Shown here: positions 2,056 through 5,214 of the stretch, in pieces
How the letters are laid out: each line of letters starts with the position of its first letter
Position numbering within the stretch: position 1 is the first letter of the stretch
Source of the DNA: Candidatus Poribacteria bacterium
Lineage (GTDB): Bacteria; Poribacteria; WGA-4E; JAJDTR01
Assembly: GCA_028820655.1 (NCBI GenBank)
Contig: JAPPIK010000056.1
Span: forward strand, 89,880 to 153,879
DNA: 64,000 nt
Direction of reading: 5' to 3'
Notes under the pieces: model-generated
What the model saw: only the letters and a program-made list of their open reading frames with translations
Told to the model about the DNA's origin: nothing
Databases searched by the model: none
Translations under genes and position numbers: made by a program

Positions 2056-3099
2056 ATGAATATCGTATGCACGGGAATCAGTTGCTCCGGTAGAAAGGAG
2101 TTGATGGCGGATTTTGAAGCACTCTGCCGCGAGAAGAACGTGCAGATTGGCTTCTTCAATGTTGGTGATTTTATGCACCATGCAGCCGCTGAAGCCGGAG
2201 TGCGTTTTACGGAGAAGGTTCTCGACTCCGATCCTGCCGTGCTCTCCTTGGCACGGCGCTCCGCGTTCCACGAAATCGCGAACCGCGCATCCGAATACGA
2301 GTATGCGTTTATCGGACTACATTCGTGCTTTCGCTGGCGCGGCAGATTGATTGAAGGTATATCTTTTCGGGATATTCGGGAGTTTCCATCCGATGTGTTT
2401 GTCAATGTGGTGGATGACCTTGCGGACATAGCAGATCGTATGGCGCCAAATCCTCAGTGGACAGGTATGCGGCGCGAAGAGATCAACGTCTGGCTGGATG
2501 AGGAAGAGTTCTTAACCAAGCAGATGGCGACCCTCAATAGCAAACCCCATTACACGGTTGCACGGCGACACAATCTTAAGAATTTCTATGATCTCTTATT
2601 CTCCGACAAGCAGAAGTTTTATCTAAGCTATCCAATCACTCTGCTCCGAGACAATTCCGAGCACCTCAATAAAATCCAAGCGTTCGGATCGAAGATGCGC
2701 CAAGATTTTATCGTGTTCGATCCGCTAGACATAAAGGATATGGAGTTAATTCACGACGCGGAAACCGAGCCGATCGAGAAACCGGAAGCCGAGAGTTCCG
2801 ACGGCATAACCACAATTAGCGGTCTTGACGCCGGTTTTAGCGAACAGATTAAGACACGCACCATCTCTAGGGATTTTCAATTCATCCATCAAAGCGATTT
2901 TGTTGTTGTGCTTTATCCAACCGACAAGCTCTCCCCGGGCGTATTAAGTGAGATGAACTTCGCATCGCGCTATAACAAACCGGTCTACGCCGTTTACTCT
3001 CATGCCCGCAGTCCTTTTTTTGAGAACCTGTGCGAGAAAATCTTCGACACCGTTGAGCAACTTGATTCATTCTTGACGAGCAGGCGACACAACAGATAA
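2056..3099 (+). CDS. Adenylate-kinase-like P-loop protein fused to a nucleoside 2-deoxyribosyltransferase-like domain
   Basis: 347 residues in two parts. Residues 1-170 resemble archaeal-type adenylate kinase / AAA_18 proteins: an N-terminal beta strand and loop GISCSGRKE, then NVGDFMHHAAAEAG, which matches the nucleotide-kinase GD(V/F)M helix. The Walker A is altered: an Arg precedes the Lys and Glu replaces Ser/Thr. Residues 190-340 contain FYLSYPIT, then DFQFIHQSDFVVVLYP and SPGVLSEMNFASRYNKPVYAVY, the pattern of the nucleoside 2-deoxyribosyltransferase fold (Asp in a DxVVV strand, Glu in the SEM helix). Start supported by CAGGGA just upstream. Precedes a RimK-like ligase and a GT4 enzyme. 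Substrate unknown; a nucleotide-sugar or nucleoside salvage/sensing role is only a guess. Confidence 0.6.
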   Translation: MNIVCTGISCSGRKELMADFEALCREKNVQIGFFNVGDFMHHAAAEAGVRFTEKVLDSDPAVLSLARRSAFHEIANRASEYEYAFIGLHSCFRWRGRLIEGISFRDIREFPSDVFVNVVDDLADIADRMAPNPQWTGMRREEINVWLDEEEFLTKQMATLNSKPHYTVARRHNLKNFYDLLFSDKQKFYLSYPITLLRDNSEHLNKIQAFGSKMRQDFIVFDPLDIKDMELIHDAETEPIEKPEAESSDGITTISGLDAGFSEQIKTRTISRDFQFIHQSDFVVVLYPTDKLSPGVLSEMNFASRYNKPVYAVYSHARSPFFENLCEKIFDTVEQLDSFLTSRRHNR

Positions 3100-3141: not shown

Positions 3142-4038
3142 ATGAAGATAGCTATTTTATCACGCGCCGCCCAGAATCATTCCACGCGAAGATTGACCGA
3201 GGCGGCGCATTCGGCAGGATGTGTCCCACACGTACTCAACCCGTTCGGTTTTGATTTACAAATTGGAGGCAGAGGCAACCGGATTTGTTACGAGGGAGTT
3301 CCCGCAGAGGATTATGATGTGGTTATTCCTCGTCTGAGCGCTGCGACCGCGATGTACGGCGGCGAGGTAGTTCGCCATTTCGAATGGACAGGAATCCCGG
3401 TCATTAATCGTGCAACGTCGATTGCTAGCGCCCGCAACAAATTTCGCACGCTTCGCATCCTTGCCGAACATGGACTGCCGGTTCCACCGAGTTTCACTGC
3501 CGGATCCGCCGACTTTCTAGACCGTGCGGTTAGTGAAACGGGAGAATATCCCTTCCTGATGAAGCCGTTTCAGGGCACCCATGGCGATGCCTTTCTTCTC
3601 CTCGACACCCGGACCTCGCTCGCATCCGCCGTCGGTGCGATGTGCGACTTGCACCAGGATTACGTCATTCAGCCCTTCATAGAAAATTCGGGGGTGATGG
3701 ATCTTCGGGTAATTGTGGTCGGAGGAAAAGTGACTGCCGCCATGAGGCGAGTCGCCCAGGCTGGCGAGTTTCGATCAAACATCCACCGCGGCGGACACGG
3801 AGCCGCTGTGGAATTACCCGCACCGTGCATTGAAACTTCCATCGGCGCGGCAGCAGCCATGGACTTGGAGGTAGCCGGAGTGGATATGCTGCACACCGCC
3901 GATGGGGCTCTGATACTTGAGGTCAATCCCTCGCCCGGATTCGAAGAGATTGAAACGGTTACCGGAGCCCGGATCGCAGAGGCAATCATCGCGTTAGCGG
4001 TCGAGTATGCTAGGGATTCCCTGCCACTATCAAAATAG
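3142..4038 (+). CDS. RimK-family ATP-grasp ligase
   Basis: 298 residues, the standard RimK length. It starts MKIAILSRAAQNHSTRRLTEAA as RimK proteins do, with the pre-ATP-grasp domain to about residue 95, then NRATSIASARNKFRTLRILAEHGLPVPP, the conserved entry to the ATP-grasp fold. The metal/ATP site is ILEVNPSPGFEEIE (E-x-N plus SPG-x-E). Family members join amino acids, typically glutamate, to a carboxylate using ATP; known targets include ribosomal protein S6, coenzyme F420 and amino-group carrier proteins. The target here is unknown. It sits 42 bp after the kinase-like fusion and 18 bp before a glycosyltransferase, so a small operon making a modified conjugate is plausible but inferred. 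Confidence 0.82.
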   Translation: MKIAILSRAAQNHSTRRLTEAAHSAGCVPHVLNPFGFDLQIGGRGNRICYEGVPAEDYDVVIPRLSAATAMYGGEVVRHFEWTGIPVINRATSIASARNKFRTLRILAEHGLPVPPSFTAGSADFLDRAVSETGEYPFLMKPFQGTHGDAFLLLDTRTSLASAVGAMCDLHQDYVIQPFIENSGVMDLRVIVVGGKVTAAMRRVAQAGEFRSNIHRGGHGAAVELPAPCIETSIGAAAAMDLEVAGVDMLHTADGALILEVNPSPGFEEIETVTGARIAEAIIALAVEYARDSLPLSK

Positions 4039-4056: not shown

Positions 4057-5214
4057 ATGCAAATTCTGATGTTTAACCACGAGTTTCCCCCAATAGGGGG
4101 TGGAAGCGGCTGGGTGAGTTATTTTTTCGGGAAACACTTCGTAGAGGCGGGGCACGATGTACACCTTATTACGTCCCAATTCCAGAATCTCCCCGATGAG
4201 GAGGAAGTTGAAGGAATTCATGTTCGCCGCGTGCCTACATTGCGGAGTAACAAGGATGTCTGCGCCGTACACGAGATGCTGACCTACTCGATTAGCTCAG
4301 TTGTGCATGGATTGCGGAATGTCTCTCGACTCAAGCCGGATATTGTGCAGATATTCTCGGGCATTCCAGCCGGCGGCGGCGGATACCTGTTGAAGAAGAT
4401 TCACGGTTTGCCGTATGTGGTCTTTCTTAGTGGACGCGATGTACCAAGCCAGAATCCGGATCCCCCATATTACCGTTGGATTTACGCCCTGCTGCGTCCC
4501 ATGATACGAGGAATTTGGAATAACGCCGGAGCGGTGGTCGCGTGCAGCGACGGATTGCGCGACTTGGCGTTGCAGACCGCACCACACCTTAACTTTAAGG
4601 TTATTCCCGACGGATTAGACCTGAATCGTTTTTCGCCGGTAGATCGGGCTGCTGCTCCAGCTAGTGTCCGAATCCTCACGATCGGCAGACTAATTCCTAG
4701 GAAAGGTTTTCAACTCCTAATCCGGGCGTTACCTCGAGTGATTGCCGAAGCGATGGTTGATTTCGAGATAGAGGTTGTCGGGGATGGTCCCGACCGCGAT
4801 ACGCTCGAGGCGTTGGCGAAAGAGCTAAAGGTCGATCACAAGATTTTTTTCTCCGGTTCGGTTTCCTATTCGGAACTCCCCCAAAAATACCGGGACGCTG
4901 ATGTTTTCGTTCTTTGCTCCTTAGCGGAGGGGATGCCACTTGTCGTGCTTGAAGCAATGGGAACCGGATTACCGATCGTAGCAAGCAGGGTGCAGGGGAT
5001 TGAAGACTTAGTCAGAACAGGAGTAAACGGCGCACTGTTTCCACCAAATGATGTCGACGGTTTAGCAAGAAGTTTGGTGGGCCTGATTAACGACGGGATA
5101 AGCCGCGTCCGAATGGGGAGGTCAAGTATCGATTTTGTACAGAAATACGATTGGAAGAATATCGCGAGTGCCTACCTGGCAATTTACGAGCGCCTTCTGG
5201 AGGAACGAGACTAA
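4057..5214 (+). CDS. GT4-family glycosyltransferase
   Basis: 385 residues with the GT-B layout. The N-terminal acceptor half starts NHEFPPIGGGSGWVSYFF with the glycine-rich loop and EAGHDVHLIT. The C-terminal donor half has TIGRLIPRKGFQLLIRAL and EGMPLVVLEAMGTGLPIVAS, the E-x7-E retaining GT4 signature. It should transfer a sugar from a nucleotide-sugar onto a lipid, glycan or small molecule at the cytoplasmic face. It follows the ATP-grasp gene by 18 bp and is probably cotranscribed. Acceptor and donor cannot be read from the sequence. Confidence 0.85.
   Translation: MQILMFNHEFPPIGGGSGWVSYFFGKHFVEAGHDVHLITSQFQNLPDEEEVEGIHVRRVPTLRSNKDVCAVHEMLTYSISSVVHGLRNVSRLKPDIVQIFSGIPAGGGGYLLKKIHGLPYVVFLSGRDVPSQNPDPPYYRWIYALLRPMIRGIWNNAGAVVACSDGLRDLALQTAPHLNFKVIPDGLDLNRFSPVDRAAAPASVRILTIGRLIPRKGFQLLIRALPRVIAEAMVDFEIEVVGDGPDRDTLEALAKELKVDHKIFFSGSVSYSELPQKYRDADVFVLCSLAEGMPLVVLEAMGTGLPIVASRVQGIEDLVRTGVNGALFPPNDVDGLARSLVGLINDGISRVRMGRSSIDFVQKYDWKNIASAYLAIYERLLEERD

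Follow-up and report, generated by a model that had tools for sequence, protein, structure and literature searches.

A family of adenylate kinase-like/nucleoside deoxyribosyltransferase-like fusion proteins from Candidatus Poribacteria and four further bacterial phyla: candidate nucleoside monophosphate N-glycosidases

Background

Hydroxymethyl-dUMP arises by deamination. In humans, this nucleotide is cleared by DNPH1 (Rcl, 2'-deoxynucleoside 5'-phosphate N-hydrolase) before it is phosphorylated by dTMP kinase (PMC10603095). The catalytic pair of DNPH1 is D80/E104 and the phosphate is coordinated by S98 (PMC10603095). In the rat enzyme, Ser87, Gly89 and Glu93 match this spacing, and the ribose is contacted by a glycine located three residues after the active-site tyrosine (PMC3834327). 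The related enzyme MilB displays a phosphate site made of S97 and G99 and a catalytic E103 (PMC4081090), and its F17Y substitution moves the preference toward deoxyribose (PMC10603095). The 5'-phosphate pocket, whose serine stands in both enzymes six residues before the catalytic glutamate (S98 in DNPH1, S97 in MilB; position Glu-6), is missing from the nucleoside 2'-deoxyribosyltransferases (NDTs) (PMC10603095, PMC4081090). A purine or nucleotide enzyme joined to an adenylate kinase domain has been described as well, namely the HGPRT/adenylate kinase fusion of Zobellia, whose kinase is active (PMC7326950).

The present work is devoted to a protein in which an adenylate kinase fold precedes a domain of the NDT/DNPH1 fold. 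It shares the principle of the Zobellia fusion but differs from it in the fold of the partner. A reading of the DNA made from its letters alone had recognized the two halves and knew of no characterized protein with this combination; none was found in our library and literature searches. We propose, with moderate confidence, that the fusion is a (deoxy)nucleoside-5'-monophosphate N-glycosidase carrying a kinase-derived, non-phosphorylating nucleotide-binding domain; the activity, the substrate and the role of the kinase half are those which we infer from the features described below.

Results and Discussion

The fusion gene and its family

The window, i.e. the whole stretch of 64,000 nucleotides that was analyzed, originates from a Candidatus Poribacteria genome of 5.9 Mb. 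The fusion gene (2056..3099, forward strand) is a single uninterrupted open reading frame of 347 amino acids with an ATG start. An MFS transporter gene is located upstream (639-1790). Downstream on the same strand, a RimK-family ATP-grasp ligase (3142..4038) follows after 42 bp and a GT4 glycosyltransferase (4057..5214) after a further 18 bp. The joining of both halves in one frame, as perceived in the sequence-only reading, recurs in 70 of the 85 Poribacteria genomes. A GTDB search returned 61 loci encoding proteins 62-97% identical to that of the window, all of them in Candidatus Poribacteria, and sampling of other bacteria provided sparse full-length relatives in four further phyla, designated here by one of their genomes: those of G182 (6/7 genomes), G181 (2/4), G097 (4/54) and G470 (2/6). 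In these phyla, where every relative displays both domains in the same order, the proteins are as little as about 31-33% identical to that of the window. The Pfam AAA_17 model is matched in 17/17 members; in all 28 aligned Poribacteria members it is matched weakly in the N-terminal half, as is PF05014 in the C-terminal half. The fusion, whose recurrence greatly exceeds chance, is a real family distributed over five bacterial phyla and not a one-off. An in-frame TAA, due either to a pseudogene or to an error of the assembly, is recorded for one fusion gene match of another Poribacteria family (L102, G013:C332:583-1590).

The clades corresponding to the lineages are well supported in the family tree, which was rooted at its midpoint and in which long branches were flagged by the program. 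The two lineages with deoxynucleotide-related neighbors (see below) form a single clade with a support of 100/98. The window protein, about 31-35% identical to the members of this clade, sits in the other half of the tree.

No full-length model was found in Pfam or NCBIfam, the latter returning nothing for the fusion protein, and literature searches on the fusion, on RimK of Poribacteria and on nucleotide sensors with a degenerate P-loop provided nothing relevant. Each component fold has been described before; judging by the searched libraries and papers, neither their combination nor the family has been characterized. PADLOC gave no match for the gene and no homologues were detected in phages, plasmids and viral contigs at the sensitivities used; assignment as a defence or viral gene was therefore dropped.

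Gene neighborhoods outside Poribacteria

In the phylum of G182, the order established with Pfam at locus L124 is deoA-hpt-deoC-lipoprotein-fusion-btpA-deoB, with overlaps of 4 bp or less around the fusion gene. These genes include a pyrimidine-nucleoside phosphorylase (deoA), a hypoxanthine phosphoribosyltransferase (hpt), the DeoC aldolase and a phosphopentomutase (deoB), which matches the Pfam Metalloenzyme model and whose identity was read from its sequence. Uridine kinase, thymidine kinase, RpiB and adenosine deaminase are found beyond deoB, and similar salvage gene sets are present at L109, L110, L125 and L126. In the phylum of G470, the fusion gene is followed by a deoxynucleoside monophosphate (dNMP) kinase (PF21448) and then by a dCMP deaminase (PF00383); the three genes, observed in two genera, abut or overlap one another at L143 and lie near each other at L138. 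This pairing with a dNMP kinase recalls the setting of human DNPH1 and dTMP kinase. Such salvage contexts, with Hpt and DeoC in one phylum and dNMP kinase and dCMP deaminase in the other, speak for the N-glycosidase proposal: a dNMP N-glycosidase would release a base and deoxyribose 5-phosphate, on which Hpt and DeoC, encoded nearby, act.

Other neighbors are found in the two remaining phyla. A deoxyhypusine-synthase-family gene and a cysteine synthase accompany the fusion gene in the phylum of G181. In four genomes of the phylum of G097, it overlaps with an upstream gene for a protein of 208-219 amino acids, anti-sigma-factor-like and without Pfam match, itself preceded by an ECF sigma factor.

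The C-terminal half

The AlphaFold2 model of the window protein displays a pLDDT of 71.9 and a pTM of 0.72; the AlphaFold2 models are of moderate quality (pLDDT 69-72) and derive from shallow alignments. The C-terminal domain (residues 183-347; 2602..3096) was assigned to the NDT/DNPH1 fold using Foldseek, Pfam and profile alignment. With the full-length model, Foldseek matches this half to the NDTs 7o62 (E=2e-6) and 1s2d (E=2e-4). With the C-terminal half alone, human DNPH1 (8rpt, 5e-5) is placed alongside the NDTs 7o62 (1.4e-6) and 1s2d (9e-5). The transferase-like fold assigned to this half from the letters was thus recovered rather than found lacking. The best Pfam match is PF05014 (nucleoside 2-deoxyribosyltransferase), at scores of 25.4 for the whole window protein and 27.1 for its C-terminal half that remain below the gathering threshold of 28.8.

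Three segments hold the predicted active site. In YLSYPI (residues 189-194; 2620..2637), Tyr189 corresponds to the active-site tyrosine of NDTs and DNPH1, and Tyr192 replaces the ribose-contacting glycine. The invariant Arg272-Asp273 pair (2869..2874) contains the predicted catalytic acid, Asp273 (D80 in DNPH1). SPGVLSE (residues 293-299; 2932..2952) would provide the nucleophile, Glu299, and the phosphate-binding serine, Ser293 (S98 in DNPH1, S97 in MilB). Tyr189, Asp273 and Glu299, as well as Ser293 and Gly295, are invariant in every member over the five phyla, and the SxGVxxE motif occurs in 41/41 distinct fusion sequences. The correspondence with DNPH1 residues is indirect and combines published numbering with the NDT register obtained from 7o62. 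The DNPH1 entries of the PDB covered by the profile alignment showed no detectable sequence similarity to the fusion. An insert between the first two segments (residues 227-268; 2734..2859) is variable in length, gapped in the alignment and predicted at low confidence (pLDDT <50).

Besides its fold and its Tyr, Asp and Glu set, the domain shares with DNPH1 the serine at Glu-6 and the glycine at Glu-4 (S293 and G295, identical spacing) and an isoleucine at the base-sandwiching position; it differs by the adenylate kinase fold, the Tyr or Phe in place of the ribose-contacting glycine and the long insert. The likeness to the (hm)CMP N-glycosidases MilB and BlsM resides in the fold, the phosphate serine and the alignment of YLSYPI with MilB FL(G/A)(G/A)PF, but the fusion has a tyrosine for Phe17, the DNPH1-like state that in DNPH1 and MilB accompanies a preference for deoxyribose, and no nucleoside-antibiotic genes nearby. 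Throughout the family, position Tyr+3 is occupied by Tyr or Phe192 where the DNPH1/MilB class has a small residue. The pocket is therefore unlike that of DNPH1, and this invariant substitution argues for an unusual substrate. In the DNPH1/MilB class, the second phosphate ligand is S128' of the partner subunit or Arg23 of MilB. The nearest single-domain matches outside the family (L139, L140 and L141) are stand-alone NDT-like proteins of 175-247 amino acids with the motifs YLAGAIEYAPD...WR and KGAGTxGE.

A weak similarity to SLOG (LDcluster4) observed in most members suggests another function for this half, that of a SLOG/TIR-like module in a non-catalytic or NAD-family-directed sensor or regulator, both halves binding nucleotides in order to signal a change in the pool. 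The ECF sigma factor and anti-sigma-type short protein encoded directly upstream in one phylum, together with the degenerate P-loop detailed below, are consistent with such a device. We nevertheless regard it as unlikely, since the SLOG similarity is outranked by the NDT/DNPH1 matches and the complete, invariant NDT catalytic set would be needless in a pure sensor.

The fusion could also be a true deoxyribosyltransferase swapping bases between deoxynucleosides, with an accessory kinase fold. PF05014 and 7o62 are indeed the best Pfam and structural matches, Tyr, Asp and Glu are kept, and deoA, deoB, deoC and hpt occur in one context. However, the fusion departs from PF05014 enzymes by its sub-gathering score and its adenylate kinase partner, and at position Glu-6. 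The profile alignment to 7o62 places Glu299 on the glutamate of ELGYA and Ser293 on an aspartate; this position is Asp in the compared transferases and an invariant Ser in the fusion family. The genome moreover already possesses a canonical NDT (169-aa frame), with Asp at Glu-6 (PPDEGVMVELG), and we consider a transferase improbable. The product of this canonical gene (G000:C60:167299-167643, L094) is very close to the NDT of Chroococcidiopsis thermalis (8rh3, E=1e-66).

The N-terminal half

The N-terminal domain (residues 1-182; 2056..2601) adopts the archaeal adenylate kinase (AdkA) fold according to Foldseek, AAA_17 and a profile search of the PDB. Foldseek matches the first half of the model to the archaeal adenylate kinases 6ln3 (E=3e-9), 6pk5 (E=8e-9) and 1nks, and by sequence the family profile retrieves AdkA entries 6pjw (E=1e-6) and 6ln3 (2e-6), in agreement with the archaeal-type kinase fold of the sequence-only reading. 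The domain resembles the AdkAs of Methanotorris igneus and Sulfolobus and OdinAK in fold, overall length and the His and basic residue of the HSTVKT region. It differs in being bacterial, in the loss of both Mg-site motifs, the Thr-Thr of Walker A and the Asp of Walker B, and in its extra C-terminal enzyme domain.

The altered P-loop GISCSGRKE reported in that reading is located at residues 7-15 (2074..2100), a segment modeled at a pLDDT <50. Its variants (GISCSGRKE, GISCSEKGI, GISCSSSKE, GISKTGRAP, GISGIQKLK) do not match AdkA GxPGxG[KGS]TT, and only G7 and S9 are invariant across phyla. The Thr-Thr of AdkA G-x-G-[GSK]-T-T is gone across the family. IGLHSCFRW (residues 86-94; 2311..2337) stands in place of AdkA VDTHSTVKT, and the Walker B Asp of VDTH is replaced by Gly, Ser or Thr in all members (G/S/T-L/I/T-H). 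His89, Phe92, Trp94, Leu98 and Gly101, beside the lost Asp, are invariant.

The missing Walker Lys was not by itself accepted as proving the kinase dead, since this residue is absent from methanococcal AdkAs as well (GVPGVGGTT), and these are named adenylate kinases. The case for a non-catalytic half therefore relies on Thr-Thr and Asp being lost too, from which this half appears to be inactive in phosphotransfer. A bifunctional enzyme, whose N-terminal half would remain a phosphotransferase with an unorthodox P-loop using R13 or K14 for the Walker Lys, would agree with the methanococcal sequences, with the invariance of R13 in Poribacteria and with the existence of adenylate kinase fusions having active kinases (HGPRT/AMPK, PMC7326950). 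The same losses speak against it, no fixed basic residue exists at that place outside Poribacteria, and its probability is estimated as low.

The Poribacteria neighborhood

The sequence-only reading had pointed out the row formed with RimK and GT4, which is conserved in Poribacteria: of the 54 loci with enough flank, 49 have a same-strand RimK gene no more than 5 kb away and 43 have GT4. That row is nevertheless not family-defining, as no RimK adjacent to the fusion gene was found at the loci read in the four other phyla. Throughout Poribacteria, RimK occurs as a single copy, and most genomes that lack the fusion gene have it as well. The presence of RimK does not track the fusion gene, so that RimK was rejected as a defining partner and is probably not needed for the function of the fusion protein. 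A step in a RimK/GT4 pathway to a modified nucleotide, cofactor or glycoconjugate, suggested by this conservation and by intergenic gaps as small as 8-30 bp, is very improbable given the distribution of RimK, its tighter spacing to GT4 and a fusion gene-RimK gap ranging from 8 bp to 4 kb.

Two further observations were made on the DNA flanking the fusion gene. Copies of the 5' end of the gene (76-130 bp, 85-93% identical) are present in several Poribacteria of one genus (L097-L101). They span 12 bp upstream and the first ~20-40 codons, and 0.5-1.4 kb separates them from the intact gene downstream, e.g. at 2505-2630 for a gene at 3279-4307 in L097 (reverse complement); the copy of L101 has no intact fusion gene nearby. 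Insertions at the gene start displacing the old 5' end, i.e. an integration hotspot, are a possible explanation. Variable flanking DNA (L013:2181-7210, L025, L015, L023, L030, L043, L060) bears defence-type genes: a type III restriction methylase and Res subunit, a GmrSD (type IV) restriction enzyme and an addiction-module antidote.

Proposed function

The N-glycosidase proposal is favored by the invariant Tyr189, Asp273 and Glu299, by Ser293 and Gly295, by the lost kinase motifs and by the salvage linkage in two phyla. Tyr/Phe192, the sub-gathering PF05014 score and the moderate models count against it, as does the fact that the salvage-linked members constitute a separate clade, the neighbors being RimK and GT4 in Poribacteria and an ECF sigma factor in another phylum; we extend the salvage argument to the Poribacteria branch by inference. 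The fusion is probably a nucleotide-cleaving, pool-cleaning enzyme. In place of the earlier suggestion that it might make or sense a modified nucleotide, we favor the binding and probable cleavage of a nucleoside monophosphate, on account of the intact glycosidase residues, the lost Mg-site motifs and the deoxynucleotide salvage context in two phyla.

The mechanism can be outlined as follows. Glu299 would attack C1' of the bound nucleoside monophosphate while Asp273 would protonate the leaving base. The glycosyl-enzyme would then be resolved by water to free base and (deoxy)ribose-5-phosphate, as in DNPH1. The adenylate kinase-derived half, which has presumably lost phosphate transfer, may bind nucleotide as a lid or as an allosteric sensor and thereby determine the substrate choice or gate the activity. 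A surplus or wrong nucleotide would in this manner be taken out of the pool or fed into salvage.

A more specific and tentative version of this proposal, which we hold to be rather unlikely, is that the pseudo-enzyme domain derived from a kinase senses a nucleotide and thereby switches the covalently attached N-glycosidase. The fusion would then be a one-chain, allosterically gated analogue of human DNPH1 pool sanitizing, possibly directed at a modified or damaged deoxynucleotide, a target hinted at by the neighboring genes for dNMP kinase and dCMP deaminase.

Conclusion

If true, this proposal would provide bacteria with a dNMP-pool sanitizer with built-in sensing, in which a kinase fold has been turned into a regulatory domain. 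What had been a fusion without assigned function now comes down to a sharp question that is cheap to ask: is the base released from a (d)NMP, and is this release modulated by ATP or another nucleotide bound to the kinase half?
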